A stretch of 40,236 bases of DNA. Origin: an uncultured Solirubrobacter sp. (lineage in GTDB: Bacteria > Actinomycetota > Thermoleophilia > Solirubrobacterales > Solirubrobacteraceae). Below, piece after piece: positions 6,607 to 40,236 of this stretch; position 1 is the first letter of the stretch, and the number at the start of each line of letters is the position of its first letter. Below the pieces are notes generated by a model, which saw only the letters and a program-made list of their open reading frames with translations, did not search any database and was not told where the DNA came from. The stretch is taken from positions 1-40,236 of the forward strand of contig CALMNS010000803.1 in NCBI GenBank assembly GCA_937871635.1. The letters are read 5' to 3'. A program made the translations under genes and the position numbers.

Positions 6607-6660
6607 GGCCGGATCTAAGCCGACCGTGACTGCGCTGTCATCCGTCCAGAACCGCTAGTG

Positions 6661-6674
6661 CTTCAGATCTGAGA
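6661..6674. promoter_or_regulatory. Candidate IclR operator palindrome CTTCAG-AT-CTGAGA
   Basis: Near-palindrome in the hutH/iclR divergent gap; same half-site as 11643-11656. Confidence 0.5.
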
Positions 6675-6676
6675 CT

Positions 6677-8580: not shown

Positions 8581-8675
8581 GTCAGCGCCTCCAGGCCTGC
8601 GGACCTCCGCGTCGCGCGGGCGTCTTGGAGGCGATCGGGGTCGATCCCGTCGGCGCGCATGGGGGCGGCCATCAT
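8577..8675 (-). CDS. Possible 32-aa translationally coupled small ORF between hutI and hutF ([32 protein letters not shown])
   Basis: ATG (8675-8673) overlaps hutI TGA (8674-8672); its TGA (8579-8577) overlaps hutF ATG (8580-8578); not in the supplied track (too short). Confidence 0.35.
   Translation of the reverse strand: MMAAPMRADGIDPDRLQDARATRRSAGLEALT

Positions 8676-9924: not shown

Positions 9925-9928
<4 letters not shown>
8672..9928 (-). CDS. hutI: Imidazolonepropionase
   Basis: [62 protein letters not shown] start overlaps hutU stop (GTGA). Confidence 0.92.
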
Positions 9929-11586
<1,658 letters not shown>

Positions 11587-11642
11587 GGGCGCGATTCTGG
11601 GAGCCCGCCGTCGACGCCACAAGCACGAGCCCCACCATCTGT

Positions 11643-22017: not shown

Positions 22018-22586
22018 CTCTCCGGCTCGTCAACTGGCTCCATCGCCGCGAGGAGCTCGGACGCCGCTCAGTATGACGAGGCGGGGCTTGAGGACCAGAA
22101 CGCAGCTGGGCGATCCAGTCTGGCGCTTACTGCCCTGGGGAGGCGCGAGCGCGATGGAGCGGACGGGGCGTCGGACGGAATCAGCCCCTAATACTGTCCA
22201 CAGGTTTAGTTCCTGTATGCTAAAGTTGTGCAAGTGGGGTGTCTCGTTTGGGATGTACCGGTGCTCTCACTCGGGCGTCTCCCCGTCCGGGCATCCCGCG
22301 CCGAAGCACTTCGTCGAGCGCGGCAGGGGGCCATCGAACTCCGCCACATCCGAGGTGCCTCCAGGAACGACTGGCGCACCAGGACGCCGTCAACTACCCG
22401 CGTCCGGCCACCACGCCGGTTGGCACGCCGACCCCGAGCCCTGCGCCGCACGATCGGGTGGCGGCGGGCGCCGCTCGATGAGGCGCTTCTTGCTTCGGTC
22501 AAGGCGGAGCCCGCGCCGGTCGAAGGGCTCAACTGGTCCCGCCGAGAGCGTGCGGAGCAGCGCCGCGCCGTGGAGGCACCGGGCGC

Positions 22587-24704: not shown

Positions 24705-24953
24705 TTACTGCGCGGTGTAGCCGCCGGTGACGTCCGCGACCTTCGTGCGCACAACGCGCCCGGTGGCGGCGATCGTGGAGGCGGCTTCGTCGAGTCCTTC
24801 AGGGGATATGTCGATGAGAGCGAGGTCAGCGCCTGCCTCTGCGAGGGCCAGCGCGACTCCGCGGCCGATCCCGCCCGCAGCTCCCGTCACCAAGGCCCTG
24901 CGGCCGTCGAGGCGCATCGACCGAGCCGCTGCCGGCGTGTTGGCGACGGTCAC
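24705..24953 (-). pseudogene. Internally deleted short-chain dehydrogenase/reductase
   Basis: N-terminal Rossmann part RALVTGAAGGIGRGVALALAEAGADLALIDIS joined in frame to a typical SDR C-terminus GGYTAQ; only 82 codons. Confidence 0.75.
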
Positions 24954-25696
24954 CAGCGGAACTCCGCTGGGTCGGACTGCCCGATCAGCTCGTTCAGTAC
25001 CTCACGCAGCCGGTCCGGTTGATAGGTCGCGTCGACGAGTTCGATGACGCTGAACGGCGTCTGGCCGAGGTGCATCACCAGGCCCCGCGCGGCTGCATCG
25101 CCGTCGCCTCGCTTGATGGCGTCGAGGATGGCTCGATGCTCGACCACTCCACGCGTCCATGCGCCGCTCGCTTCCACGGTGTGGAGCCGGCGGTAGCGTT
25201 CAGCATGGTCGGAGAGCTGGTTGAGCATGCGGCTGAAGCGCTCCCCCGACCCTCCCGCGACGCCGCGGTGGAAGGCTCGGTGGGGGACCTCCCATCGCTC
25301 GTAGTCCTTTAGGTCAGCGAAGTGCGCCATCTGCGCGATGTTGCCCTCGAGTTGCGCGACCTCCTCCTGGGTGATCCGAGGGACGGTGAGCCGCACGGCA
25401 GTGTCTTCCAGCACCAGGCGAGCGCAGTAGAGCTCTTCGAGGTCGGGCATCGAGAACCCAGCCACGCGAACTCGCCGGTTGAACTCCGCGTCGACGAGCC
25501 CCTCGCGTTGAAGCATCCGCAGCGCCTCTCGCAGCGGCGTCCGGCTTACGCCGAGCTGGGCGGCGAGCTGGACCTGGGACATCGTCGAGCCCGGGCTCAA
25601 CCCGCCGCGCACGATCGCGTCCCGGAGGTGATCGTGGATCGCCTCGACGCTCTGTCCGTCCGCCGCCAGCGCGAGCGGCCGTGCCAACTCGGTCAT
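24950..25696 (-). CDS. GntR family regulator with FCD domain
   Basis: LRDAIVRGGLSPGSTMSQVQLAAQLGVSRTPLREALRMLQREGLV; C-terminal FCD-type helices. Confidence 0.93.
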   Translation of the reverse strand: MTELARPLALAADGQSVEAIHDHLRDAIVRGGLSPGSTMSQVQLAAQLGVSRTPLREALRMLQREGLVDAEFNRRVRVAGFSMPDLEELYCARLVLEDTAVRLTVPRITQEEVAQLEGNIAQMAHFADLKDYERWEVPHRAFHRGVAGGSGERFSRMLNQLSDHAERYRRLHTVEASGAWTRGVVEHRAILDAIKRGDGDAAARGLVMHLGQTPFSVIELVDATYQPDRLREVLNELIGQSDPAEFRW

Positions 25697-26595
25697 GGGA
25701 CGACGCCTTGGTCGACGGGCACCACGAGCGGATGCGCGCCGTCGACGAACTGCGCTGGCGGTGGCGGGTTGCCCCAGCGGTTGACCGTCAGCGGTTCGTC
25801 CGGCCAGACACGTGGCTCGTAGCGGGCTTCGTCCTCCACATGGAGGATGTTTGCGGAGTACTCGACGATCGCGCCGTCGTCATCGAGGAAGTAGCAGAAG
25901 TAGTTGTCGCCGATCCCGTGGTGCCCGGGTCCCCAGAGGAACCCGCGTCCATGGTGCATCAGGTGGTCGCCTGTGCGCCCGATGCTCGCCCACCCGTCCA
26001 CCTGGAAGGCGTAGTGGTTCAGAGCGTCCTCATCGGCGGCGACGACGCTGACGCCGTGGTGCTCGCTGCTGACGCGCAGCCAGCTGATGGCGTCCTCGGC
26101 GCGGTCGGAGACTCGGAGGCCGAGGACGTCGATCAGGAACGCCTCCATCGCTGGCTTGTCGGATGCCTTGATGGTCATGTGCTCGAACTTCACAGGACGG
26201 GCGCCGATGGTGTCGTAGTGAACGGGCTGGTTCTGGGCCATGCCGCAGAACAGCTCTACGACAAAGCCGCCGGGCGCGGTGAAGCTCAGGGCATCTTCGA
26301 CCCCGATTTCGACCTCACGCTGAACGAGCTCGAAGCCCGCCTCGGGGAGCAGCTCGCGGTACTGCGCGAGCACCGATGCGTCGGCCACCTCGAAGGCGAG
26401 ATGGTCGAGGCCGGCCTGATCGCCCTCGACGAGCACCAGCTCGTGATGGCGCGCGTTGCAGGTCAGGTACGCGGTCGAGCCCCGACGCTCGACCAGACGC
26501 AGACCGAGAATGTCCTGCGCGAAGGTGACCGAGCGCTGCAGGTCGGGGACCTGCAAGCCGACGTGGCCGACGCGCGTCGCCCGCGGCCACGTCAT
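25693..26595 (-). CDS. VOC-superfamily type I extradiol dioxygenase-like protein
   Basis: Two glyoxalase-fold repeats; FEHMTI / LNHYAFQV / AIVEYSAN supply the His-His-Glu facial triad. Confidence 0.85.
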   Translation of the reverse strand: MTWPRATRVGHVGLQVPDLQRSVTFAQDILGLRLVERRGSTAYLTCNARHHELVLVEGDQAGLDHLAFEVADASVLAQYRELLPEAGFELVQREVEIGVEDALSFTAPGGFVVELFCGMAQNQPVHYDTIGARPVKFEHMTIKASDKPAMEAFLIDVLGLRVSDRAEDAISWLRVSSEHHGVSVVAADEDALNHYAFQVDGWASIGRTGDHLMHHGRGFLWGPGHHGIGDNYFCYFLDDDGAIVEYSANILHVEDEARYEPRVWPDEPLTVNRWGNPPPPAQFVDGAHPLVVPVDQGVVP

Positions 26596-27524
26596 CGCAC
26601 GATCTCTCGATCGGCGGCCAGGGCCGTGTGCCGGACGGGACCGGCGACAACGGTGTTGGAGATGGATCCGATGCCCCCGACGGCGATGCCCACTGTGTCG
26701 CCTTCGCGGAGGAGCACCTGGGGATCCCGGCTGATCCCGACGCCGGCAGGGGTACCCGTCGCGATGATGTCGCCGGGCTCGAGGGTCATGAGCCGCGACA
26801 GGAAGGCCACCGTCTCGGCGACGGAGAAGATCATCTGGCTCGTATTCGAGTCCTGCACCAGCCGGTCGTTGACCCGGGCCGAGATGTCGAGGTCCTGCAG
26901 ATCGCCGAGCTCGTCGAGCAGGACGAGCGACGGCCCGCACGGAGCGAACGTGTCGATGGCCTTGCCGGCCGTCCACTGGCTGGTCTGGTGCTGAACGTCG
27001 CGCGCTGTGACGTCGTTGAGGACCATCGCTCCGGCGACATAGGCCAGGGCGTCTGGCTCCTCCACGTCCTTGCATCGGCTGCCGATGACGACGGCGAGCT
27101 CCGCTTCGTAGTCGATCTTCTCTCCCACCGGCGGAAGCACGATCGGGTCGTGCGGGCCGGCGAGCGAATTGCGGAACTTGGCGAACAGCATCGGTGCCTT
27201 CGGGAGGTCAAGCCCAGACTCTTCGGCGTGGTCTCGATAGTTGAGTCCCAGGCAGATGATCTTGTCGGGGTCCGTGACCGGTGGGCCCAGCGATACATCC
27301 GCGAAGGTCGCGACTGGTTCACCGGAATACCGTTCGGCCGCCTGCCGGATGTCCTCGAGAAGTCGGGGTCCGCCCTGCAGCACGGTCCGATTCGATGACC
27401 AGCGGGTGTCCTCGGGAGATCCGAGGCCTCCACTCGCGGCCACCGCTGCGGTGTCGAGGACCCCGTTGTCCACGACTAAGCCAGGCCGCCGGGCAAACGC
27501 CGGCCCGTAGGTCACCAACCGCAT
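26592..27524 (-). CDS. Fumarylacetoacetate hydrolase family protein
   Basis: PDKIICLGLNYRDHAEESGLDLPKAPMLFAKFRNSLAGP, DYEAELAVVIG, TARDVQ, GDIIATGTPAGVG; SD AAAGGA upstream of ATG. Confidence 0.92.
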   Translation of the reverse strand: MRLVTYGPAFARRPGLVVDNGVLDTAAVAASGGLGSPEDTRWSSNRTVLQGGPRLLEDIRQAAERYSGEPVATFADVSLGPPVTDPDKIICLGLNYRDHAEESGLDLPKAPMLFAKFRNSLAGPHDPIVLPPVGEKIDYEAELAVVIGSRCKDVEEPDALAYVAGAMVLNDVTARDVQHQTSQWTAGKAIDTFAPCGPSLVLLDELGDLQDLDISARVNDRLVQDSNTSQMIFSVAETVAFLSRLMTLEPGDIIATGTPAGVGISRDPQVLLREGDTVGIAVGGIGSISNTVVAGPVRHTALAADREIVR

Positions 27525-27612
27525 AGCGCTTCCTTTCCAATCGGACTCGGAGGCGCGACATCGTTCGCACCTTCCATTCGCTCCTGTCGAGTACTGGACG
27601 CAGACAGGATAG

Positions 27613-27641
27613 ATGTACACAGCCTAGTCGAAGTCGTCAAG
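27613..27641 (-). promoter_or_regulatory. Candidate promoter/operator for the FAH-VOC-GntR-SDR-ADH operon
   Basis: Reverse strand CTTGACGAC (-35 TTGACG) ... CTGTGTACAT; same arrangement as sites at 27665 and 37732. Confidence 0.55.
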
Positions 27642-27664: not shown

Positions 27665-27728
27665 CTTGACGACAGTGCAGCAATCTACATACAGTATCCG
27701 ACCATGCGCTCAGTCGCTTCGGGCGCGG
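27665..27728 (+). promoter_or_regulatory. Promoter/operator module A for the sugar ABC operon: TTGACG-18-TACAGT with CTACATACAG and ATGCGCTCAG leader block
   Basis: Same spacing and sequence blocks as module B at 37732. Confidence 0.65.
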
Positions 27729-27836
27729 CAGTCGGGTCAACGCCAGCCGCTGAGCCCGGCCGCAGACGGCGTCCGAAGGGACGAATGAGCGGCGCCGCAC
27801 GGTTGCCGAGGAGCAGGAACCATGGGGAGGAGGGTC

Positions 27837-28976
27837 ATGTTCAGTCGCAAGTGGAGCAAGGGTCCCGGTGTGACGGGGTCGGTAAGGGTCGCGGTAGAGG
27901 TCCTCACGGCGGCGTGTCTCGGTCTTGGGGCGGCCGGCTGTGGGTCTGAACCGGCAGGCACAAGTGCGGGCTCCGGGGCGACGGCGACCAAGGACATCAG
28001 GCTCTACGCTGGCATTGGATCGGCTTCTGCCGAGTACTGGGCCTCCTTCACCGAGGGATCCCGGGCGGTCGCCGATTCAGAACGAGCGCCGTACCAGGCG
28101 CTCGCGAGCGAGTTCGAGGGCCAGAAGCACCTCGAGCAGTTTGGCGCGCTCTTCTCCCGCGGTTGCGAGCGCTGCGCCGTCACGATCGACCCGGCCTCGA
28201 CCGCCTACACCAAGGCGATCGTCAAGAGCGCCACCAAGGGCGGCGCCTCCGTCGTGACCGTCTGGAACAAGACGGACGGGGACCACCCCTGGGAAGGCGA
28301 GGACAACTGGGTCGCGCACACGACCTTTGACGGTGTCGACTCGGGCTACCGCAACACCAAGGCGCTCATCGAGGAGATGGGCGGCCGCGGCAACATCGTC
28401 GCGCTGCGCGGCGTCCCGGACAACCCTCCGGCCAGCGGCCGGCGAGCCGGGATGACGAAGGCGCTCAAGGAGCATCCGAACGTCAGATTGCTCGATGAGC
28501 AAGTCGGCAGCTGGGATCCGAACAAGGGGCAGCAGCTCACCGAGACCTGGCTGGCGAAGTACGGCGATGAGATCGACGGGATCTTCGCTCAGAACGACGC
28601 GATGGGCCTCGGCGCCATCGAGGCCCTGCGCGCCGAGGGGCTGGCCGGTGAGGTCCCCGTCACGGGCTCGGACGGTGGCAAGGACGCGCTCAACGCGGTC
28701 AAGAAGGGCGAGATGGTCTCGACCATGTTCGTCGATCCGGCGATCCAGGGCGCGGTCACCGCGGCGCTGGCCTACGCCGCCGCGCGGGGTGACGTCAAGC
28801 CCGCCGACCTTCCGAACGACAAGCGCGAGTTCTACCTCAAGCAGCAGATCGTGACCGCGAAGAACGTCGACGAGTTCCTCGCGCGGAAATTCGATCCGGC
28901 TCAGTACAGCTACGAGAGTCTCAAGAAGAACTTCTGGGCGCAGTCCGCGGGACCGATTCGCTACGGAGGCGCGTGA
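27837..28976 (+). CDS. Sugar ABC transporter substrate-binding lipoprotein (periplasmic-binding protein type 1)
   Basis: Lipobox LGAAGC; GSGATATKDIRLYAGIGS..., FAQNDAMGLGAIEALRAEGL, TGSDGGKDALNAVKKGEM; GGAGGAGG SD. Confidence 0.9.
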   Translation: MFSRKWSKGPGVTGSVRVAVEVLTAACLGLGAAGCGSEPAGTSAGSGATATKDIRLYAGIGSASAEYWASFTEGSRAVADSERAPYQALASEFEGQKHLEQFGALFSRGCERCAVTIDPASTAYTKAIVKSATKGGASVVTVWNKTDGDHPWEGEDNWVAHTTFDGVDSGYRNTKALIEEMGGRGNIVALRGVPDNPPASGRRAGMTKALKEHPNVRLLDEQVGSWDPNKGQQLTETWLAKYGDEIDGIFAQNDAMGLGAIEALRAEGLAGEVPVTGSDGGKDALNAVKKGEMVSTMFVDPAIQGAVTAALAYAAARGDVKPADLPNDKREFYLKQQIVTAKNVDEFLARKFDPAQYSYESLKKNFWAQSAGPIRYGGA

Positions 28977-30037
28977 GTGTGAGCCCGAACTCTGTCCCTA
29001 ACGCCGCCACCGCCACCGTCGCCGCGGAAGGCAGGACGCGGCAGCGGCGGGGAGCCGGCGACCGGGTGCGGTCGCTGACCCCCGGCCTGCGCCGGCTGCG
29101 GACCTGGGGTCCGCTTCTCATCCTCGCCGCGCTGTGCGTCATCTTCGCGGTCGCCAGCCCGCGCTTCCTGACGGTCGACAACCTCCAGACGATCGCCAAC
29201 CAGAGCGCGATCCCGATCGTTCTGGTCTGTGGCCTCACGTTCATCGTGATCATGGGCTCGATCGACCTGTCGCTCGAGGGCGCCATGGCTGTCACCAGCG
29301 TGGTCTCCGCGCTGCTGATCGCCAACGACGTCAACGGCAGCGACCTCGGGTACCTGGCCGTGCTGATCGGGGTGGGTCTCGGGCTGTTGTTCGGGCTCGT
29401 CAACGGCCTGCTCTACACGAAGCTGCGGCTGCCGTCCCTGCTGGTGACGGTCGGCACGTGGTTCGTCGGGCTCGGTATCGCTGCTTTGCTGTTCCCCGCC
29501 CGCCAACCGCGCATCTCCGACGGTTCCCTGCGGGCGTGGTCGCTCGACACGCTGCTCGGGGTCAGCCGACTGGTCTTCGTCGCTCTCGCCTGTGTCCTCG
29601 TCGCCTACCTCCTGCAGCGCTACACGAAGTTCGGCCGGTACTGCTTTGCCATCGGCGGCGGGGAGGACACGGCGCGGCTCTCCGGGCTGCCGCTCGACCG
29701 CGTGAAGGTCGCCGCGTTCGGGTTCGCCGGCCTGATGGCCGGCCTGGCCGGGGTGATGGCGACCACGCGGCTGGGGGTCGGCAGCGTCGAGGCGGGCGAA
29801 GGGCTGCTGTTCCCGACCATCTCGGCGATCGTCATCGGGGGCACCCTGCTCAGTGGAGGACGCGGCGGGATCCTCCACAGCCTGGTCGGAGTGCTCATCC
29901 TCGGCGTGCTGAGCAACGGGATGGTCCTCGTCGGAGTCGACGCCTACGTCCAGCAGGCGGTGCAGGGAGCGATCATCATCGTCGCGGTCGTCCTGACCAC
30001 GTGGCACGCACGTTCGCGGATGCGGGTGATCAAGTGA
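28973..30037 (+). CDS. Sugar ABC transporter permease (RbsC type)
   Basis: NQSAIPIVLVCGLTFIVIMGSIDLSLEGAM, GGTLLSGGRGGILHSLVGVLILGVLSNGM; GTG start overlaps SBP stop. Confidence 0.9.
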   Translation: MSVSPNSVPNAATATVAAEGRTRQRRGAGDRVRSLTPGLRRLRTWGPLLILAALCVIFAVASPRFLTVDNLQTIANQSAIPIVLVCGLTFIVIMGSIDLSLEGAMAVTSVVSALLIANDVNGSDLGYLAVLIGVGLGLLFGLVNGLLYTKLRLPSLLVTVGTWFVGLGIAALLFPARQPRISDGSLRAWSLDTLLGVSRLVFVALACVLVAYLLQRYTKFGRYCFAIGGGEDTARLSGLPLDRVKVAAFGFAGLMAGLAGVMATTRLGVGSVEAGEGLLFPTISAIVIGGTLLSGGRGGILHSLVGVLILGVLSNGMVLVGVDAYVQQAVQGAIIIVAVVLTTWHARSRMRVIK

Positions 30038-31554
30038 GTGCACCTGTCCTGCAGGTCAGCGGGCTCACCAAGCGGTTCCCCGGGGTGGTGGCGCTCGACG
30101 ACGTCAGCGTCGAGGTTCGCCGCGAGGAGGTCGTCGGGCTCATCGGCCAGAACGGCTCAGGCAAGTCCTCCCTGCTCAAGATCCTCGCCGGCGTCCAGTC
30201 GGCCGACGCCGGTGAGATCCGCCTGCGCGGCGAGGTCATCCGACCGCGGTCGGTGGCAGCCGCCAATCAGCTCGGGATTGGGATGGTGTTTCAAGAGCAG
30301 TCCTTGCTCCCGAACCTGACGGTGGCGGAGAACATCTTCCTCGGCAAGGACCACCCCGCGACCCGGCGCGGCTGGTATCGCTGGGGCGCCCTCCGCACAG
30401 CCGCGCGGGCCCAACTGCGTAAGATCGAGACCGACATCGATCCGGGCACCGTGGTCGGCGAACTGCCGTTCGGTCAGCGCCAGATGGTCGAGCTGGCGAA
30501 GGTGCTGGCGCTCGAGGAGCTGGTCGACGTCCCGCTCGTGATCCTCTTCGACGAGCCGACTTCGGTGCTCTCCGGCGCCGAGATCGAGATCCTGTTCCGG
30601 CAGATCCAGCGGCTTCGTGAGCGCTCCTCGGTCGTCTTCGTCTCGCATCGGATCGAGGAGGTGCTCGCCGTCTCCGAGCGTGTCTACGTCATGAGCGATG
30701 GTCGGCGCGTCGCGGAGGAGGCGGCGGGAGCGGCCGGCATGGAGGAGCTCTATCGCCTCATGGTGGGCGAGGACCGTGCTGAGGACTACTACCGCGAGGA
30801 GGCACGAGCCGCCGCGAACGTCGACGACTTGCGGCTCTCCGTCCGGGGCGTGTCGGCTGCGGACCGCGTCGCGGACGTCTCGTTCGACCTCCGGGCGGGG
30901 ACGGTGCTCGGCCTGGCTGGCGTGGGCGGCTCGGGCCGGGAAGAGCTGGTGCGCGCCCTGTTCGGCGCCGAACCACTGACGTCCGGCTCGATCGAGCTCG
31001 ACGGGCACCGCGCGAGCTTCCGGTCCCCGTCGCAGGCGGTCGAGGCCGGCATGGGATACGTACCGGCGGAGCGCAAGCTCGAGGGCATGCTGGCGGGCCG
31101 CGACCTGCACGAGAACCTGGTCGCGGCCTCCGGCACTCAGCTGCGACGTGGACCTTGGATCGATCGCCGACGCGAGCGGCCGGTCGTGGACGAGTGGCTG
31201 GCGCGGCTGAAGGTCAAGGCGCCGTCGCCGCGTGTGCGGATCGACCAGCTCAGCGGCGGCAACCAGCAGAAGGTCGTCCTGGGCAAGTGGCTCCTCTCGG
31301 ATCGCCTGCGGGTGCTGATCCTCGACCACCCGACGCGCGGCCTCGACCTAGGCGCGAAGGGCGACGTCTACGACCTCGTCCGGCAGCTGGCCGCGGGAGG
31401 CCTGGCGATCATCCTCCTCTCCGACACGCTGGAGGAGACGCTCGGGCTCTGCGACCAGGTCATCGCCATGCGCGACGGGACGATCACCGGCCGCTTCGAG
31501 GACTGCGTCAACGACAAGCCGGAGTCCGAGGATCTCATCCGGCTGATGGTCTGA
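30034..31554 (+). CDS. Sugar ABC transporter ATP-binding protein, tandem NBD (RbsA type)
   Basis: GQNGSGKSSLLKILAG, LFDEPTSVL, LSGGNQQKVVLGKWL, second Walker B LILDHPTRGLD; GTGA overlap. Confidence 0.93.
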   Translation: MSAPVLQVSGLTKRFPGVVALDDVSVEVRREEVVGLIGQNGSGKSSLLKILAGVQSADAGEIRLRGEVIRPRSVAAANQLGIGMVFQEQSLLPNLTVAENIFLGKDHPATRRGWYRWGALRTAARAQLRKIETDIDPGTVVGELPFGQRQMVELAKVLALEELVDVPLVILFDEPTSVLSGAEIEILFRQIQRLRERSSVVFVSHRIEEVLAVSERVYVMSDGRRVAEEAAGAAGMEELYRLMVGEDRAEDYYREEARAAANVDDLRLSVRGVSAADRVADVSFDLRAGTVLGLAGVGGSGREELVRALFGAEPLTSGSIELDGHRASFRSPSQAVEAGMGYVPAERKLEGMLAGRDLHENLVAASGTQLRRGPWIDRRRERPVVDEWLARLKVKAPSPRVRIDQLSGGNQQKVVLGKWLLSDRLRVLILDHPTRGLDLGAKGDVYDLVRQLAAGGLAIILLSDTLEETLGLCDQVIAMRDGTITGRFEDCVNDKPESEDLIRLMV

Positions 31555-31571
31555 CTGGAGGCATACACGAC

Positions 31572-32582
31572 ATGAGCACCTCCTCGTCCACCTCAAGTCC
31601 CCCGGCGCCGCAACTCCCATCGGCACTGCGTCGGCTCCGACTCAGAGCTGGCACCGAACTCGCTGGACTCATTCCGCTGGCTGTCCTCGTCGTCCTCGTC
31701 CTCGCCGTCTCGTTGGCGGAGCCCTCGTTCCTGGGCACGCAGTCGCTCAAGGCGACCGCGATCACCGCGGGCCCGATCCTCCTGCTCGCGTTCGGCAGCA
31801 CCTTGGTCATCCTCATCGGCGGCTTCGATCTCTCCGTAGCTGCGCTGACCACCTTCGGCTCAGTGCTGCTGGCCAAGTGGCTGCCAGGAACGGGTTCGCT
31901 GGTCGGTGTCCTGCTCGTCGTTTTGGCTGCCACCGGCCTCGGGGCACTGCAGGGTTGGGTCCACGGCGTGACGCAGATCCCGTCTTTCATCGTCACCCTC
32001 GGGGGCCTGGGCATCTTCACCGGCCTTGCACTGCTGGTGTCCGACGCGACGGCGATCCCGATCACGGAGAACACGGGCCTACTCGACACGATCGGGTTGG
32101 AGTTCGCCGGCATCCCGAACGCGGTCACCGTCGTCGTGGTCGTGCTCGTCCTGCTCGCCGCGGTCATGCGCTACACCCCGCTCGGGCGTGACGTCTACGC
32201 CCTCGGTGCGGCCGAACCGGCCGCCCGGATGTCGGGGACCCGAGCGTTGCGCGTCCGAGTCATCGTCTTCGCGACGTCGGGGATGTGCGCCGGGCTCGCG
32301 GCGGTGTTGCTCGCCGCTCAGACGTCCTTCGGATCGCCGACCCTGGCCAACAACCTGCTTCTGCCCACCGTCGCGGCCGTGGTGGTTGGCGGCACCGCCG
32401 TCTCCGGCGGGGTCGGCGGACTGGGACGCAGCCTCGTCGGCGGGCTCATCGTCACCACGGTCACGGCCGGCACGGTGGTCCTCGGCTTCGACCCCGCGCT
32501 GCAGAACGTCGCGTTCGGGATCGGGGTCCTGGTCGCGGTGGCGTTGACGACCGACCGCCGCAAGCTCGGCACCATCAAGTGA
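31572..32582 (+). CDS. Sugar ABC transporter permease (RbsC type), second
   Basis: LAFGSTLVILIGGFDLSVAALTTFGSVLLA; GGTAVSGGVGGLGRSLVGGLIV. Confidence 0.9.
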   Translation: MSTSSSTSSPPAPQLPSALRRLRLRAGTELAGLIPLAVLVVLVLAVSLAEPSFLGTQSLKATAITAGPILLLAFGSTLVILIGGFDLSVAALTTFGSVLLAKWLPGTGSLVGVLLVVLAATGLGALQGWVHGVTQIPSFIVTLGGLGIFTGLALLVSDATAIPITENTGLLDTIGLEFAGIPNAVTVVVVVLVLLAAVMRYTPLGRDVYALGAAEPAARMSGTRALRVRVIVFATSGMCAGLAAVLLAAQTSFGSPTLANNLLLPTVAAVVVGGTAVSGGVGGLGRSLVGGLIVTTVTAGTVVLGFDPALQNVAFGIGVLVAVALTTDRRKLGTIK

Positions 32583-33571
32583 GCCGCGAGCCGCAGCCAG
32601 TCGGTCACGCACGACTCGGCGCCACCGACCTCGAGGTGCCCCAACTCGCGTTCGGGGCCTCACCGCTCGGCAAGACGTTCCGGGACGTCTCGCTCGCGGA
32701 GGGCGGCATGGCACTCAGCGCGGCACTCGACCTCGGCGTGAACCTGATCGACGTGGCGCCCTTCTACGGCCTCGGACTGGCCGAGCGGCGTCTCGGCGAG
32801 CTCCTGCGAGACGTACCGCGAGAGCGCTTCCTGCTGTCCACCAAGGTCGGTCGATACGGCCCCGAGATCGCCGATTGCGACTACTCGGCAGCGCGCACGC
32901 GCGCGAGCGTCGAGGAGAGCCTGCGCCGCCTCCGGGTCGAGCACCTCGACCTCGCGCTCGTCCACGACGTTGAGTTCGCCGATCTGGAGCAGGTCCTTGC
33001 CGAGGCGCTTCCGGCGCTTGCGGCGCTCAAGGCCGAGGGCAAGGCTCGCTACATCGGGGTCACCGGGCTCCCACTCGCCCTGCTCGACCGGCTCGCGAGC
33101 GCCCATCCGATCGACGTGGTGCTGTCCTACTCGCACTACGCCCTGACGGACGACGCGCTGGCGGCGTACCTCCCCCGCTTCGAGGCGGGGGCCATCGGCG
33201 TGATCAACGCATCGCCGCTGGTTGCCGGTCACCTGACGCAGCGCGGGGCGCCGGACTGGCATCCGGCGCCGGCGCGCTTCCGCGACGCGTGCCGCGAGGC
33301 CGCCGCGCTTTGCCGGGACCGCGGCGCGAGCCTCGAGCGCCTCGCGGTGCAGTACGCCACCTCGCACGACGGGATCCCGACGACGCTCGTGGGCACCGCC
33401 AACGCGGAGAACCTCCGCGATCTCGTGCGCTGGCTCCTGGAGCCTCTCGACGAGGAGCTCCTGGAGGACGTCCTGGCCGTGCTGGCCCCGACACATAACC
33501 TCACCTGGCCGCAGGGACGCCCGGAGAACAACTTCGTCGATCCCGCGGTCGTGAGGGCCGAGCTGGCATGA
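32579..33571 (+). CDS. Aldo/keto reductase (D-threo-aldose/L-galactose/L-fucose dehydrogenase-like)
   Basis: FGASPLGKTF, NLIDVAPFYGLGLAERRLGELL, LALVHDVEF, NASPLVAGHL; GTGA overlap. Confidence 0.88.
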   Translation: MSREPQPVGHARLGATDLEVPQLAFGASPLGKTFRDVSLAEGGMALSAALDLGVNLIDVAPFYGLGLAERRLGELLRDVPRERFLLSTKVGRYGPEIADCDYSAARTRASVEESLRRLRVEHLDLALVHDVEFADLEQVLAEALPALAALKAEGKARYIGVTGLPLALLDRLASAHPIDVVLSYSHYALTDDALAAYLPRFEAGAIGVINASPLVAGHLTQRGAPDWHPAPARFRDACREAAALCRDRGASLERLAVQYATSHDGIPTTLVGTANAENLRDLVRWLLEPLDEELLEDVLAVLAPTHNLTWPQGRPENNFVDPAVVRAELA

Positions 33572-33700
33572 GGGCACTCGTCGTCGACGCCGATTCAAGT
33601 CCGCGTCCCGGGTCCTCGCTGACGGACGACGAGCTGGCTCGTCGCCGCGTTCGGGTGACGTCCGACCGAGTTGCACGGCCAACGATAGACGCGTGGCGTC
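33568..33700 (+). pseudogene. N-terminal relic of an ADH paralogous to the 23517..24695 enzyme
   Basis: MRALVVDADSSPRPGSSLTDDELARRRVRVTSDRVARPTIDAWRR matches MKALVLDADWEPRPGYLPSEHERSERRAREGSAIWRNPR in order; the remaining enzyme is absent. Confidence 0.6.
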
Positions 33701-33817
33701 GACGGCGCGTCGCCCGCCATGGAGCGCGCCGCCGAGCCGTGCGGCGCCGAGGTCCTCATCGTCCCGACCCGCACAGCGCCTGATCGGCGCCCGGCCCATC
33801 CCGAACACAGGAGAAAC

Positions 33818-34225
33818 GTGGACATCCGATCCGAAGCCACCGTCGAGCCGATCCTCGAGCACGAGACCGTCAAGGTTCACTCGCTGTTCCCGAAGTTCTC
33901 CTTCCGGGAGCAGACCGAAGGCTCGTACCTCGAGTTCGTCGACGTGTTCGAGATCCGCGCCGGTGCCCAGGCCGAACCGCACTACCACGACACGCACGAG
34001 TTCTACTTCCTGCTCGAAGGTGACGCCGTCGTCCAGATCGAGGATGAGGCCTCCCACGTCCGCCCAGGCGACCTCATCCACATTCCGCGCAACGCCAAGC
34101 ACTCCATCTGGCCCACGACGGACAGAGGGGTCAAGGCGTTCTGCTTCGCGGTGAGCTACCAGGAGCCGGAGCTCCCGGGCTACACACCCGCAGAGCTCCC
34201 GCCCGTCGAGCCGGCCGCCCAGTGA
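33818..34225 (+). CDS. Cupin domain protein
   Basis: AEPHYHDTHEFYFLLEGDAVVQIEDEASHVRPGDLIHIPRNAKHSIW; CAGGAG SD before GTG. Confidence 0.88.
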   Translation: MDIRSEATVEPILEHETVKVHSLFPKFSFREQTEGSYLEFVDVFEIRAGAQAEPHYHDTHEFYFLLEGDAVVQIEDEASHVRPGDLIHIPRNAKHSIWPTTDRGVKAFCFAVSYQEPELPGYTPAELPPVEPAAQ

Positions 34226-35331
34226 GTCGCGCCTTCCTGGTGGACCCGGTGCGGCGCCGCAGTGGCCTCGCCACGATCAGGGAGCCCGCGCGACGATGCG
34301 CCCACGACGTGATCCTCGACGTCCTCGAGGTCGGCATCTGCGGCACCGACCGCGAGATCGTTGAGTTCGCCTTCGGCGAGCCGCCGACGGGCGAGGACCG
34401 TCTCGTGCTGGGGCACGAGTGCCTCGCCCGGGTGGTTGGTCCGGCCCCGGACGGAACGGGCTTGCAGGACGAGCAGCTCGCCGTGCCGATCGTCCGGGAC
34501 CCCTGTGAGGCCGCCGACTGTGCGCCCTGCCGTCACGACGACCAGGACTTCTGCCTTACCGGCCAGTTCGCCGAGCACGGCATCCGCCGGGCGCACGGGT
34601 TCCTCGCCGAGCGGATCGTCATGCCGGCCGCGCGACTCGTAGCGGTCCCGGACGCGTTGCGCGCGACGGCGGTGCTGGCGGAGCCGCTCACGGTCGCCGA
34701 GAAGGTCCTGCGACAGCTGGCAGCCGTGGCGGGACGGGTGCCGTCCACCGGCGCGGCCCGGCCCGGGGCGGCGCTCGTCGTCGGCGCCGGCCCGATTGGG
34801 TTGCTCGCTGCCATGGCGCTGGTCCTGCGCGGCTGGACGGTGACGGTAGGGGCCCGTTCGGTGGCGCCGACGCCCAACGCCCGCTTCGCCGAGGCGCTCG
34901 GAGCACGGTATGTCTCCACCCATGAGCTGCCGTTAGGCGTCCTCGCCGCCGAGACGGGAGGCTTCGAGCTGGTGCTAGAAGCGGCCGGCGACGCAACGGT
35001 GGCGCTGGAGGCGACGGCCGGGCTGCGACCAAACGGCATCCTCGCACTGACCGGCCTGAGCCTGCCGGGACCCCCGCGCGCCGGCTTCGACCTCGGGGAG
35101 GTCATCCGCCGGGTGGTCCTCGGCAACCAGGTGTTGCTCGGCAGCGTGAACGCCGCCCGCGCCGACTTCGAGGCGGCCATCGCCGACCTGCTGCGTGCCG
35201 AGGAACGGTGGCCAGGGCTAGCGGAGCAGCTCATCACGAGCCGGTACCCGCTCGAGCGGTCCGCGGACGCGATCCACACCTCCGGTGGCATCAAGGCCGT
35301 CATCGAGGTCCAAGAGGCCCAAGCGGCGTGA
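34222..35331 (+). CDS. Zn-dependent alcohol/glucose dehydrogenase family protein
   Basis: EVGICGTDREIVEFAFGEPP, GHECLARV, AEPLTVAEK, GAGPIGLLAAMAL. Confidence 0.87.
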   Translation: MSRAFLVDPVRRRSGLATIREPARRCAHDVILDVLEVGICGTDREIVEFAFGEPPTGEDRLVLGHECLARVVGPAPDGTGLQDEQLAVPIVRDPCEAADCAPCRHDDQDFCLTGQFAEHGIRRAHGFLAERIVMPAARLVAVPDALRATAVLAEPLTVAEKVLRQLAAVAGRVPSTGAARPGAALVVGAGPIGLLAAMALVLRGWTVTVGARSVAPTPNARFAEALGARYVSTHELPLGVLAAETGGFELVLEAAGDATVALEATAGLRPNGILALTGLSLPGPPRAGFDLGEVIRRVVLGNQVLLGSVNAARADFEAAIADLLRAEERWPGLAEQLITSRYPLERSADAIHTSGGIKAVIEVQEAQAA

Positions 35332-36479
35332 CCCGCGGACAGGCCCTCGGCTTGGGCGTGGTCGGCGCCGGCAGCGTCTCCCTGAAGGGCATCCTGCCGC
35401 ACCTCACGCAGGCCGATCTGGCCGATCGGGCTCGCGTGGTCGCGGTGTGCGATCCGGTGGAGGGCAGGGCCGCCGCTGCCGCCCGACGTTTCAGCGTCGA
35501 GTGTGCCTACGAGACGCTCGACGCCCTGTTGGCGGATCCGGCGGTCGACGCGATCACCATCGCCTCGCCGATCGGCGTCCACTACGAGCAAGGCCGCCGC
35601 GCGCTGCTGGCCGGCAAACACGTGCACTTCAACAAGACCATGACCGTGACCACGGCGGAGGCGGACGACCTCATCGACCTAGCCGCGGACCGAGACCTGC
35701 GGATCGTCGCCTCACCCGGCGAGATGCTGCGCCCCTACAACCAGCGCATCAAGACCATGATCGCAGAGGGCCGGATCGGGCGGGTCTGCTGGGCGATCTG
35801 CGGCGCGGCCTTCGAGACCTACCACGAGTCCGAGGCCGTCCGGGGCGGCGACGACATCCTGTCCACCGTCGATCCCAGCTGGTACTTCAGCAAGCCGGGC
35901 GGCGGCCCGCTCTACGACATGACCGTCTACGCCCTGCATGCCCTCACCGGAATCCTTGGTCCGGTCCGGCGGGTCACCGGGCTCTCAGGGATCCGCATCC
36001 CCGAGCGCTCGTTTCACGGTCAGATCGTCCGCGGCGACGCCGACGACAACACGGTCGTCCTCCTCGACTTCGGTGAGGGGCTCTTCGCAGTCGCCTACGG
36101 CACCGCGGCCGGGAGCCTGACCAGCTGGGACGACTGGAGCGGGCGCTATTTCGGGACGGAGGGCCGTATCGATGGCCTCCTGCTGGACGGCGAGCCGTTC
36201 GAGTTCCCTGGCTGCGAACTCGCCCGCAGCCATCCCGACGGCGGCACCCGTCCGGGGCGCGGGGGCAACGAGTGGTTGCTCCCCCACGTCACCGGAGTGC
36301 ACCGCGACATCGATGAACAGCACGTCTTCGAGGACATCATGCAGCTCGTCGACTGGGTGCGGGACGACATCGCGTCACCCGTGACGGCCGAGCACGCCCG
36401 TCACGTCATCGACATCATCGAGGCGGCGTACCGTGCCGCCGCCACCGGGGCCGCTCAGCCGCTGAGCACCAGCTTCTGA
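35328..36479 (+). CDS. Gfo/Idh/MocA family oxidoreductase
   Basis: GLGVVGAGSVSLKGILPHL, AVDAITIASPIGVHYEQGRRALLAGKHVHFNKTMTVTTAEADDLIDLA; GTGA overlap. Confidence 0.9.
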   Translation: MTRGQALGLGVVGAGSVSLKGILPHLTQADLADRARVVAVCDPVEGRAAAAARRFSVECAYETLDALLADPAVDAITIASPIGVHYEQGRRALLAGKHVHFNKTMTVTTAEADDLIDLAADRDLRIVASPGEMLRPYNQRIKTMIAEGRIGRVCWAICGAAFETYHESEAVRGGDDILSTVDPSWYFSKPGGGPLYDMTVYALHALTGILGPVRRVTGLSGIRIPERSFHGQIVRGDADDNTVVLLDFGEGLFAVAYGTAAGSLTSWDDWSGRYFGTEGRIDGLLLDGEPFEFPGCELARSHPDGGTRPGRGGNEWLLPHVTGVHRDIDEQHVFEDIMQLVDWVRDDIASPVTAEHARHVIDIIEAAYRAAATGAAQPLSTSF

Positions 36480-36506
36480 TCGGCAGGATCAGCCAAGGAG
36501 GCAGTC

Positions 36507-37421
36507 ATGCGCATCGACCTCGCCAACTCCCCCGTCGCCTGGGGCGTCGACCACCTCGAGCGGAAAGGGCTCCCGCGTTGGGAGACTGTGTTCGACGAGA
36601 TCAAGCGGGCCGGCTACGACGCGGTCGAGCTCGGGCCGCTCGGCTACCTCCCGCTCGAGCGGGGTCGGGCAGCGGCCGAACTCCGGGCACGCGGGCTGCG
36701 CGTGGCGGGGTCGTTCATGCTCGAGCCCGTCCACGATCCCGACCGGCGCGACACGGTGCTCGACGGCGCTCGCCGGGCCGCGGAGTTCATCGCCGACGCC
36801 GGCGGCAAGTACCTCGTCATCGTCGATTGGGACGCCGACCAGCGGATCCCGACCGCCGGGCGCTGCGACGACGCTCCGCGAATGGACCCGGCCGCGTGGG
36901 AGCGTTACCTCGCCACCTACCTCGAGATATCCCGCATCGCGAGCAGCGACTATGGCCTGACCGCGCTAGCGCATCCGCACGCGGGGACATGGCTCGAATT
37001 CGAGGACGAGACCACGGCGCTGCTCGACTCGACCGATCTGCCGATCTGCATTGACACGGGCCACTTCGCCTACGCCGGAGCCGATCCGGTCGCCATCTAC
37101 GATCGCTATGCCGCCCGAGTCCCGCATCTGAACTTCAAGGACGTCGATGGCGCGGTCCGCGAGCGCGCGCTCGCCGACCACCTCGGCTTCTTCAAGGCCG
37201 TTGACGCCGGGATCTTCTGCCCGCTGGGGGAAGGCGTGGTCGACTTCCCCGGTCTGCGCGCGGCCCTCGAACGGCACGGCTACGAGGGTCCGGCGACAGT
37301 CGAGCAAGACCGCGATCCCCAGAGGGACAGCACGGCGCTTGAGGACGCGCGTCGCAGCCTCGAGTACCTCCGCTCGGTCGGACTGGCCGACGGGGGGACT
37401 CCGGTATCGGCGACCCCGTGA
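36507..37421 (+). CDS. IolE-like sugar phosphate isomerase/epimerase (TIM barrel), paralog of 22587..23504
   Basis: AWGVDHLE, AHPHAGTWLEFEDE, CIDTGHFAYAGADPVAIYDRY, LNFKDVDG, IFCPLGEGVVDF, ATVEQDRDP. Confidence 0.87.
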   Translation: MRIDLANSPVAWGVDHLERKGLPRWETVFDEIKRAGYDAVELGPLGYLPLERGRAAAELRARGLRVAGSFMLEPVHDPDRRDTVLDGARRAAEFIADAGGKYLVIVDWDADQRIPTAGRCDDAPRMDPAAWERYLATYLEISRIASSDYGLTALAHPHAGTWLEFEDETTALLDSTDLPICIDTGHFAYAGADPVAIYDRYAARVPHLNFKDVDGAVRERALADHLGFFKAVDAGIFCPLGEGVVDFPGLRAALERHGYEGPATVEQDRDPQRDSTALEDARRSLEYLRSVGLADGGTPVSATP

Positions 37422-37439
37422 CACAAGCATGATCCGATG

Positions 37440-37470
37440 AGCGCTTGCGCAGACGTGCCAGCAAAGCGCT
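37440..37470. terminator. Imperfect hairpin after the second IolE-like gene
   Basis: AGCGCTTGC (37440-37448) with GCAAAGCGCT (37461-37470), one-base bulge, 12-nt loop. Confidence 0.35.
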
Positions 37471-37532
37471 TGGGCGTCCTCCGGACCCGCTCCGACCCCG
37501 ACCGACACCCACTCGGTCGACCCACGCGCGGC

Positions 37533-37725
37533 TGGAGTTCCCCCGGTTCGGGGGAGATCTAACGGCCGGGCCACCTGGCCGGCCGGGCAAGGGTGCCTGT
37601 CATGCCCAAGACTCCGCCGTACTCCGATGACGGCCGTCGCGACGCCTGATCAGCGACGAGCGCGACGAGTTGCGGCGCTTGCGCCGAGAGCTCAGGTGGT
37701 CGCAGAACCAGGGACCGGATTCAGA
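37533..37725 (+). pseudogene. Second IS3-type relic (terminal sequence, orfA N-terminus, displaced orfA C-terminal piece)
   Basis: TGGAGTTCCCCCGGTTCG end shared with 18374; MPKTPPYSDD (37602) and, in another frame, LISDERDELRRLRRELR. Confidence 0.6.
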
Positions 37726-37731
37726 ACGCGG

Positions 37732-37796
37732 CTTGACGACAGGTCCTCATTCTGTATACAGTACTTTGGTATGCGCTCAGGTCGTTTCGGGCGCGA
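37732..37796 (+). promoter_or_regulatory. Promoter/operator module B for the HisD-like operon: TTGACG-18-TACAGT with CTGTATACAG and ATGCGCTCAG leader block
   Basis: Same spacing and sequence blocks as 27665; perfect 10-bp palindrome CTGTATACAG at 37752-37761. Confidence 0.7.
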
Positions 37797-37830: not shown

Positions 37831-39132
37831 GTGGCCGACTACTTGAAGTCCGCGCCGATGTACTCCGAGCAGGTCACCGAGGCGGTGCGCCGCACGGTGA
37901 CGGAGATGCTCGAGGGCATCGATCGCGAGGGCCTCGACGCCGTGCGCCACTACTCCGATCAGCTCGACGGCTGGAGCCCGGAAGCCTTCACCGTCGGACC
38001 CGAGACGATAGAGGCGGCCAGCGCATCGATCGACGACGAGCTCAAGGAGCACATCGCCTTCGCGCAGGACCAGGTGAGGGCCTTCGCGCAGGCCCAGCGC
38101 GCCACCCTGACCGACCTCGAGGTCGAGACGCTGCCCGGCGTGGTGCTCGGGCATCGCCACGTTCCCGTCGGCTCGGTCGGCGCCTACGTCCCCGGCGGGC
38201 GCTACCCGATGCTCGCCTCTGCGTTCATGACGGTCATCGTCCCCAAGGTGGCCGGGGTCGAGCGGGTCGTCGCGTGCGCCCCGCCGCAGCGCGACGGCGG
38301 GCCGCACGCCGCGATGGTCCACGCGATGGCGACGTCGGGCGCCGACCACATCCTCTGCCTCGGCGGGGTGCAGGCGCTGGCCGCCATGGCGCTCGGCGTC
38401 GAAGGGCTGCCGGCGGTAGACATGATCGTCGGCGCCGGCAACGCCTACGTCGCCGAGGCGAAGCGCCAGCTCTTCGGCAAGGTCGGCATCGACCTGTTGG
38501 CCGGTCCGACGGAGATCGTCGTCATCGCCGACGAGACCGCCGACGCCGAGCTCGTGGCCGCCGACCTCCTAGGTCAGGCGGAGCACGGGCCGACGTCCCC
38601 GGCCATCCTCATCACCACCTCCCAGTCGCTGGGCGAACGGGTGATCTCCGAGGTCGACCGCCTGCTCGAGACCTGGCCGACCGCCGAGGTGGCTGGACAG
38701 GCGTGGCGCGAGCACGGCTCGGTCGCAGTGGTCGAGGATCTAGCCGCGGCGGTCGCGCTCTCAGACGAGTACGCGGGCGAGCACCTCGAGGTGCAGGTCG
38801 ATCCGGACCACCTCGACGAGTACCTGGACCGCCTCACGGTCTATGGCTCGCTGTTCCTCGGCGATCAGGCCACCGTGGCGTACGGCGACAAGGGTGTCGG
38901 CACCAACCACGTGCTCCCGACGATGGGCGCCGCGCGCTACACGGGTGGGTTGTGGGTGGGCAAGTTCTTGCGCACCTGTACCTATCAGCGGCTCACCGAG
39001 GAGGGCACCCGCCGCGTTGCGCCCGCCATCGCGGCGATCTGCCACGCCGAGAACCTCGAGGGCCACGCACTGACCGCCGAGATGCGGCTCGTGCGTGCCG
39101 AGGCAGCCTTGAGCGGATCGGGTGGCCGGTGA
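37831..39132 (+). CDS. Histidinol dehydrogenase family protein, probably catabolic paralog (HpsN-like possibility)
   Basis: GSVGAYVPGGRYPMLASAFMT, AGPTEIVVIADETADAELVAADLLGQAEHGP, GEHLEV, GTNHVLPTMGAARYTGGL, EGHALTAEMR; GGGAGGGAG SD before GTG. Confidence 0.88.
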   Translation: MADYLKSAPMYSEQVTEAVRRTVTEMLEGIDREGLDAVRHYSDQLDGWSPEAFTVGPETIEAASASIDDELKEHIAFAQDQVRAFAQAQRATLTDLEVETLPGVVLGHRHVPVGSVGAYVPGGRYPMLASAFMTVIVPKVAGVERVVACAPPQRDGGPHAAMVHAMATSGADHILCLGGVQALAAMALGVEGLPAVDMIVGAGNAYVAEAKRQLFGKVGIDLLAGPTEIVVIADETADAELVAADLLGQAEHGPTSPAILITTSQSLGERVISEVDRLLETWPTAEVAGQAWREHGSVAVVEDLAAAVALSDEYAGEHLEVQVDPDHLDEYLDRLTVYGSLFLGDQATVAYGDKGVGTNHVLPTMGAARYTGGLWVGKFLRTCTYQRLTEEGTRRVAPAIAAICHAENLEGHALTAEMRLVRAEAALSGSGGR

Positions 39133-39464
39133 TGGCCGGCGCGCTGCCCGCCGTGGACGCCGCCGGCCTCGATCGCGAGCTCGCGGCTGAGGGTCCGGTA
39201 TTGGTGGACTTCTGGGCGCCCTGGTGTGGCAACTGCCGCATGCTTGCTCCGGCGCTCGAGCGCCTCGCCGAGGAGTTCGCAGGCCGCCTGCGCATCGTCA
39301 CCGTCGATGCGGACGCCGAGCCGGCGCTCGCTAAGCGCCTTGACGTCCAGGGCTTGCCCACTCTCATCGGCTTCCACTCCGGCGAGGAGCGGCTGCGCCG
39401 GAGCGGCCCTCAGAACCCGAACGCCCTGCGCGGCGAGCTCGAGACGCTCGCCGCAACCCATTGA
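39132..39464 (+). CDS. Thioredoxin
   Basis: VLVDFWAPWCGNCRMLAPALERLAEEFAGRLRIVTVDAD, GLPTLIGF. Confidence 0.93.
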   Translation: MAGALPAVDAAGLDRELAAEGPVLVDFWAPWCGNCRMLAPALERLAEEFAGRLRIVTVDADAEPALAKRLDVQGLPTLIGFHSGEERLRRSGPQNPNALRGELETLAATH

Positions 39465-39481
39465 CTCGACCGGAGGACACC

Positions 39482-39952
39482 ATGCCGAGACTGCCGCTCA
39501 CCGATCTGCACGACGACTCGTTCTACGCCGCGCTGGGCAACCGCCCGGAGATCCTCGAGGCGTGGGGCAGGCTCGACCTCGCCTTGCTCAACGACGAGAG
39601 CTCGACGCTGCCGACGAGCCTGAAGGAGGAGGTCCGTCGCTCGCTCTCCCAGCAAGTGGGATGTGAGTTCTGCGCGTCCATCGGCGGCCGACCCGCCAGC
39701 GAGCATCCCGATCCAAAGGAGTCGCTCGCGGTCGCCTTCGCTGATCAGGTTGTCCGCGACCACCGCTCGATCGATGACGCGACGTTCGACGTCCTGCGCG
39801 AGGAGTTCGACGACGAGCAGATTCTCGAGCTCCTCACCTGGATTTGCTTCAAGCTCGGCTCGAACGTACTCGGCTCGCTACTCAAGCTCGAGCCTGCCAG
39901 CGAGGCGCAGACCCGCGACTACGCCGTGCTGCTCCAGGGCGCGACGTCGTAG
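39482..39952 (+). CDS. Carboxymuconolactone decarboxylase/AhpD-like protein
   Basis: GCEFCASIGGRP CxxC motif in an AhpD-like helical context. Confidence 0.7.
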   Translation: MPRLPLTDLHDDSFYAALGNRPEILEAWGRLDLALLNDESSTLPTSLKEEVRRSLSQQVGCEFCASIGGRPASEHPDPKESLAVAFADQVVRDHRSIDDATFDVLREEFDDEQILELLTWICFKLGSNVLGSLLKLEPASEAQTRDYAVLLQGATS

Positions 39953-39979
39953 GCGAGCTGCGAGGACCGGGGGAGAGGG

Positions 39980-40236
39980 ATGAGCCAGATCACCGCCGCA
40001 CCACCGACTGAGCCGCCGGGCATCACCGCGATGGCGCCGACCGAGGACCTCGTCGATGCCAAGGGCCGGGCGCGCCGACAGGCCGTCGTCGACCGCTTTG
40101 CGCGGTTCGGGATCCAGGCCATCTTCTTCGTGGTACTGCTCGTGCTGCTGATCGCATCGCCCGAGTTCCGCGATCCGGACAACCTGCTCAACGTCCTTCA
40201 GCAGAGCTCCATCACGGGGATCCTCGCGTGCGGGAT
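39980..40236 (+). CDS. Sugar ABC transporter permease (RbsC type), 3' truncated by window edge
   Basis: MSQITAAPPTEPPG...IQAIFFVVLLVLLIASPEFRDPDNLLNVLQQSSITGILACG, typical RbsC N-terminus. Confidence 0.8.
   Translation, partial: MSQITAAPPTEPPGITAMAPTEDLVDAKGRARRQAVVDRFARFGIQAIFFVVLLVLLIASPEFRDPDNLLNVLQQSSITGILACG

Follow-up and report, generated by a model that had tools for sequence, protein, structure and literature searches.

The window analysed here, 40,236 nt of DNA from an uncultured Solirubrobacter sp., carries one promoter-like module twice on its plus strand, at 27665 and again at 37732, in front of two different operons. This arrangement raises the question of whether the two copies represent a generic repeat, the product of a recent duplication, or control elements read by a common regulator, and, in the last case, how such a regulator would read them. 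Based on sequence comparisons, we favour, with a probability of roughly 0.7, a reading in which the modules are sigma70-type promoters carrying operator arrays for the GntR/FCD regulator encoded at 24953-25696, the surrounding cluster being controlled as a local regulon.

Two copies of one promoter module

In an ungapped comparison, copy 1 (27665-27713) and copy 2 (37732-37780) are identical at 35 of 49 positions, as the first-pass annotation had counted, whereas the runner-up to either copy on both strands of the window reaches 27/49 (mean 12, sd 3). The distance of 38 nt between the outer blocks was likewise confirmed, and corresponds to twice 19. In the source MAG (3.84 Mb, 830 contigs, 78% complete), the full pattern was found at these two sites only, and a search of the whole MAG with the relaxed pattern TTGAC / ATACAGTA / ATGCGC, allowing up to three mismatches, again returned just both copies, indicating that the likeness is specific and not that of a generic repeat. 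Similarly, a 74-column model built from both copies gave strong scores for those two copies alone among 146 genomes of the family. Other matches to this model were treated as chance, one (L092, E 6e-5) lying inside a P450 gene and others, e.g. ATGCGCTCGCGCCGCTTCGGGCG at L095, resembling coding DNA.

The elements recognised in the two copies are as follows:

27666-27671, plus strand: copy 1, putative -35 TTGACG, separated by an 18-nt spacer from TACAGT
27690-27695, plus strand: copy 1, putative -10 TACAGT, overlapping operator core O1
27666-27675, plus strand: copy 1, weak core O0, TTGACGACAG (nTG-N4-CAG), overlapping the -35 and 19 bp upstream of O1
27685-27694, plus strand: copy 1, core O1, CTACATACAG, overlapping the -10; PWM rank 2 of 40,227 window positions
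27704-27713, plus strand: copy 1, putative core O2, ATGCGCTCAG (formerly the "leader block"), exactly 19 bp from O1
27714-27727, plus strand: conserved block TCGCTTCGGGCGCG of about 14 nt after O2; counterpart at 37781-37795 with a 1-nt insertion
37733-37742, plus strand: copy 2, O0, TTGACGACAG, as in copy 1, with the -35 TTGACG at 37733-37738
37752-37761, plus strand: copy 2, O1, the perfect palindrome CTGTATACAG, with the best PWM score in the window
37757-37762, plus strand: copy 2, -10 TACAGT, overlapping O1
37771-37780, plus strand: copy 2, putative O2, ATGCGCTCAG, 19 bp from O1 and containing an ATG in the frame of the HisD-like ORF

Both copies thus hold TTGACG and TACAGT 18 nt apart, which fits a sigma70-type promoter (TTGACN and TANNNT, 16-19 nt apart). 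The three identical blocks, TTGACGACAG, CTnnATACAG and ATGCGCTCAG, are each 10 bp long and all of the form nTG-N4-CAG, the middle block of copy 1 fitting it in its right half only. Their starts lie exactly 19 bp apart in both copies, leaving spacers of 9 bp, and differences between the copies are distributed very unevenly, with 28/30 identities in the cores and 6/18 in the spacers (Fisher 1.7e-5), the latter being close to the random level.

This contrast bears on the idea that a promoter piece of about 65 bp was recently copied, perhaps with mobile DNA, and has since been drifting without selection on the blocks. Such an event would account for the observation that, if a 1-nt gap is allowed, the similarity extends some 14 bases beyond the last core (TCGCTTCGGGCGCG / GTCGTTTCGGGCGCG) and then ends sharply. 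However, drift alone sits poorly with the uneven changes, no similarity was detected between the flanks of the two copies within the window, and no Pfam family matched a transposase-like remnant suspected ahead of copy 2. We therefore regard unselected duplication as improbable; whatever the origin of the blocks, the core/spacer contrast indicates that they are under selection.

The bases common to both copies beyond the third core, TCGYTTCGGGCGCG, do not constitute an operator core, and this 14-nt block is left unaccounted for by the operator-array model. An alternative in which the hairpin GCGCUC/GGGCGC forms a conserved 5' leader acting on RNA stability or attenuation draws on the finding that its six-base arms are the same in both copies, both differences falling in the loop. 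Nevertheless, the predicted folding of four segments was close to that of shuffled sequences (z 0.25, -1.22, -1.12 and -0.03), the block had no Rfam match at the gathering score, and the third promoter described below does not preserve the arms, so that an RNA element appears very unlikely, more so than the unselected duplication. Searching the 146 family genomes with the model did not recover the block at equivalent positions in relatives.

A probable FCD/GntR-type operator in the -10 region

Upstream of copy 1, on the opposite strand, the window encodes a candidate regulator together with two enzymes, preceded by a promoter that had been overlooked earlier:

24953-25696, minus strand: GntR-family regulator with an FCD domain, the proposed cognate repressor (PF00392 1.6e-16, PF07729 4.1e-25)
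25693-26589, minus strand: extradiol-dioxygenase/glyoxalase-fold enzyme (PF00903), in the same operon as the regulator
26592-27524, minus strand: fumarylacetoacetate hydrolase-family (FAH) enzyme, first gene of the divergent operon (PF01557 2.1e-73)
27594-27641, minus strand: third, divergent promoter, pointing at the FAH-dioxygenase-GntR operon
22194-22222, strand not assigned: weaker putative operator pair, CTGTCCACAG (22194) and CTGTATGCTA (22213), PWM ranks 5 and 10 in the window

With both Pfam domains above their cutoffs, the regulator belongs to the FCD group of the GntR superfamily (FadR/VanR type); its nearest NCBIfam model, phnR_burk, stays below cutoff, as do the HpaD/C23O-like assignments of the dioxygenase-fold enzyme.

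The window contains the string CTTGACGAC at exactly three places, two on the plus strand (27665 and 37732) and one on the minus strand (27633-27641), the last of which opens a third promoter back-to-back with copy 1. The layout there consists of CTTGACGAC (27641-27633), O1' CTGTGTACAT (27622-27613) and O2' CTGCGTCCAG (27603-27594), with O1' and O2' again spaced by 19 bp, a 17-nt promoter spacer and a poorer -10, TACATC. Since this operator-bearing promoter faces the operon that includes gntR, the regulator is probably autoregulated. The members of the weaker pair at 22194 and 22213 are also 19 bp apart and lie in apparently intergenic DNA before an IolE-like gene.

The palindrome type GT-N2-3-AC known from GntR operators (consensus in PMC4494728) is present in CTGTATACAG of copy 2 and in CTGTGTACAT of the divergent promoter, whereas O1 of copy 1 is degenerate relative to CTGTATACAG and retains one half-site only. 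A PWM derived from sites outside the window placed the two O1 cores first and second within it, with scores of 24.0 and 21.2, whereas shuffled sequence did not exceed 16.2, a ranking which is partly circular in that the source sites were picked for their likeness to CTGTATACAG. Less circular are the 19-bp tests presented below and a count over regulator loci. For the latter, homologues were gathered from the 146 family genomes and, in a wider scan, from 84,980 species genomes. Of 80 homologue loci in this wider set, which spans many phyla, 18 have TGTATACA within about 600 bp of the regulator, compared to at most 2 of 80 for each of 11 control palindromes of the same composition. This count replaced a narrower test over coding and intergenic DNA, in which CTGTATACAG had 6 matches (mean 0.9) within 1.5 kb of 26 family regulators and came only second among 60 permuted palindromes, probably owing to the frequency of GATC-type palindromes in coding sequence.

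Sites of this type recur in the nearest actinobacterial homologues, in which AAACTGTATACAGTTT-type sequences stand ahead of the regulator and of a divergent FAH operon. At the locus of a homologue from another genus (L065), the regulator gene is preceded by TTGACGAC-N10-CTGTGTACAGT, and a family member (L071) shows the order FAH, GTGTATACAG, dioxygenase, GntR, as in the window. The combined pattern TTGAC-N12-15-CTGTRTACAGT had 4 matches in 232 genomes of the order, and its reversed counterpart 0.

Taken together, these results bear out the earlier proposal that the -10/operator block is a control element: judged by its sequence, the shared block ATACAGTA is an FCD/GntR operator half laid over the sigma70-type -10 TACAGT, with the putative cognate regulator gene in the same cluster. 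The expected conservation in relatives holds in part: the regulator, the FAH partner and the type of operator are kept, whereas the module is missing ahead of HisD homologues and the block after the third core is not conserved.

Several related loci were noted in passing. The same MAG encodes two further FCD regulators, L088 (contig C258, about 4712-4817) and L089 (contig C134, 7386), which are 48% identical and are accompanied by CTGCATACAG / CTGTGTACAG / CTGGATACAG; given their similar operators, they could possibly also bind the sites of the window (cross-talk). In another family of the order, two loci (L084 and L085) have an operator-bearing promoter before an amidase-like gene (CTGTATACAGTTGCCACCTTG), with a leaderless-looking start codon 7 nt past the -10, and a further such promoter at a distance of about 3.2 kb; there, too, two units of one cluster carry the same type of operator. 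Near another FCD regulator (L090, at 6124), a long perfect inverted repeat surrounds GATCGAACTGTCTACAGTTCGATC, which may be a terminator or an operator.

A 19-bp period across the promoter

The first-pass annotation had described ATGCGCTCAG as a leader block. This is probably wrong, as the block, at a distance of exactly 19 bp from O1, fits an operator core of lower strength, and CTGCGTCCAG does likewise at the divergent promoter; a second operator core is the more likely identity on present sequence comparisons, and the -35 block may be a core promoter element that doubles as a third one.

Using a matrix whose source sites all lie outside the window, we scored partner sites at offsets of 11-60 on either side of the four best anchors. 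Among these 100 offset/direction choices the best by far was +19 (14.9; next -15.3) and -19 was the third best. At 19 bp the third-best pair sum amounted to 17.5; no other offset exceeded 7.7, and 100 shuffled windows yielded 11.1 at most. As the 19-bp offset had been seen by eye in the window before being tested there, the sole independent test is that of 29 outside anchors, for which 19 bp was again the top offset, with 6 matches compared to about 0.4 expected (Poisson 7e-6, or 1e-4 with one homologous pair counted once).

Allowing up to two mismatches, the O1+O2 pair occurs at 4 places in the whole MAG, all of them in these promoters, while the reversed control has 8 matches elsewhere, so that the location is informative and the counts alone are not. 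The exact operator pair had only two matches in 399 genomes of the class. Neither was retained: one has no relatives of the window genes nearby, and the other, spaced at 21 bp, precedes a different FCD regulator encoded in the source MAG.

A competing explanation accepts only O1 as a real operator, takes the -35 block as just a -35, and interprets ATGCGCTCAG either as an mRNA leader or as a leaderless start codon followed by a conserved 5' end of the coding region. An ATG lies 8 nt past the -10 in both copies, that of copy 2 is in frame with the HisD-like ORF, and in relatives (L082 and L071) start codons stand 6-8 nt past operator-containing -10s, consistent with leaderless mRNAs. In contrast, a 1-nt indel right after the block precludes a peptide common to both copies, the ATG of copy 1 does not share the frame of the binding-protein gene, and the third promoter has CTG at the equivalent place, which counts against a conserved start codon. 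Moreover, the 19-bp partner signal would then be due to chance. We consider this single-operator explanation unlikely, though less so than the duplication and the RNA element discussed above, and prefer the operator array.

All three cores recur at 19 bp in both copies, and the divergent promoter has two. However, the outer cores are weak, O0 and O2 ranging in the top 1.5% and 0.7% of window positions by PWM, and part of the O0 match is supplied by the -35 itself; together with the choice of matrix sites for their likeness to CTGTATACAG, this limits the operator-array claim. In distant homologues tandem sites favour 14 bp and not 19, which suggests, as far as sequence goes, that tandem spacing is lineage-specific. 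Examples are five loci of distant FCD regulators from Sulfuritalea and others (L136, L140, L151, L125 and L176), with a second site 14 bp from TGTATACA. It is only a tentative proposal, rated slightly below even odds, that the FCD/GntR regulator reads a three-element 19-bp array extending from the -35 across the -10 to the start of the transcript, core promoter elements doubling as weak operator cores, and that this spacing is heritable in an actinobacterial subfamily, with 14 bp in other FCD lineages.

A predicted local regulon and its precedents

The two plus-strand modules precede the following operons:

27837-37421, plus strand: operon 1, after copy 1, with the sugar-binding lipoprotein gene first
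37831-40236, plus strand: operon 2, after copy 2, encoding a HisD-like dehydrogenase, a thioredoxin, an AhpD-like protein and then more

Operon 1 encodes, in this order, a sugar-binding lipoprotein, a permease, an ABC ATPase, a permease, an aldo-keto reductase, a cupin, two dehydrogenases and an IolE-like protein; the ORF list starts its first gene at 27822, with 27837 being the likelier start by its Shine-Dalgarno sequence. Beyond the window end, operon 2 continues with a second Rbs-type importer and a short-chain dehydrogenase (SDR). The downstream genes had been called unrelated, which holds less than claimed: the first genes differ, yet both operons encode Rbs-type importers and sugar/cyclitol-type oxidoreductases. 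Together with the shared operator-type promoters and the regulator gene in the cluster, this supports the earlier suggestion that the Rbs-type transporter and HisD-trx-AhpD operons belong to one regulon, and the cluster is most likely turned on and off jointly.

The HisD-like dehydrogenase of operon 2 is a paralogue, the MAG holding four such genes. The module is absent from the upstream regions of HisD homologues at 65-75% identity, and operon 2 therefore seems to have been recruited to the regulon in this lineage. A tandem repeat of about 22 bp (TGCGTGAGCGACCACTGGTCCC) was observed upstream of one HisD homologue (L032). Further along, the minus-strand cluster encodes an enzyme above the cutoff for scyllo-inosose 3-dehydrogenase IolM, and our guess is that the substrate is an inositol-like compound or a sugar acid.

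In the proposed mechanism, the promoter TTGACG, 18 nt, TACAGT would be built into an operator array for the regulator, the strong O1 covering the -10 and the weaker O0 and O2 lying on the -35 and just past the expected start site, respectively. When inducer is absent, regulator dimers would occupy O1 and then, probably cooperatively, O2 and O0, thereby blocking RNA polymerase at both importer operons as well as the divergent FAH-dioxygenase-gntR operon, until a cluster metabolite (a pathway intermediate) releases the repressor. Which protein binds, that it represses and does not activate, that its binding is cooperative and what induces the system are points that we infer.

Such a scheme has known counterparts. 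Atu1419 of Agrobacterium fabrum is a VanR-type FCD regulator whose 10-bp palindrome ATGTATACAT overlaps the -10 (PMC7797058), and the window resembles this system in its FCD-domain GntR protein, -10-overlapping palindrome, divergent layout with the regulator gene and several promoters per catabolic cluster. The Atu1419 palindromes, however, are 109-190 bp apart and bridged by a tetramer with looping (PMC7797058), whereas the cores of the window are 19 bp apart inside one promoter and have C/G as outer bases. The nearest precedent for the operator array is E. coli NanR, also an FCD-type GntR repressor, three dimers of which bind a (GGTATA)3 operator cooperatively (PMC8012715); with it the window would share three tandem elements per promoter and an array repeated across the operons of the regulon. 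NanR differs in that its hexamer direct repeats sit downstream of the polymerase site (PMC8012715); in place of GGTATA repeats, the window holds 10-bp nTG-N4-CAG near-palindromes with a 19-bp period, spanning the -35 to about +10, which would probably be bound cooperatively. In the FadR subfamily, extra half-site boxes lie 7-12 nt from the site centre (PMC4494728). Thought to recruit further subunits, these boxes are akin to the weaker elements beside a strong GntR palindrome seen here, but the second core of the window is centred 19 bp away.

The predicted regulon is of a known type and the instance is new, the 19-bp array being the part beyond the ordinary. A likeness spotted by hand becomes a testable regulon of one regulator gene, three (perhaps four) promoters and two importers, which brings together enzymes of the inositol/sugar and ring-cleavage types within a single 40-kb cluster from an uncultured actinobacterium. 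An operator consensus with a defined spacing for this uncharacterised GntR/FCD subfamily would allow regulon prediction in related genomes, and, should the 19-bp array bind cooperatively, it would represent a second geometry beside the repeats of NanR.

Two further features of the gene neighbourhood were observed. Between gntR and the IolM-like gene (24705-24953, minus strand) lies an 82-aa N-terminal piece of a short-chain dehydrogenase, possibly a broken gene. Beside the sugar cluster, 5059-11622 forms a histidine-utilisation-type cluster with an aromatic amino acid (histidine ammonia-)lyase, a urocanase, two amidohydrolase genes and an IclR regulator.
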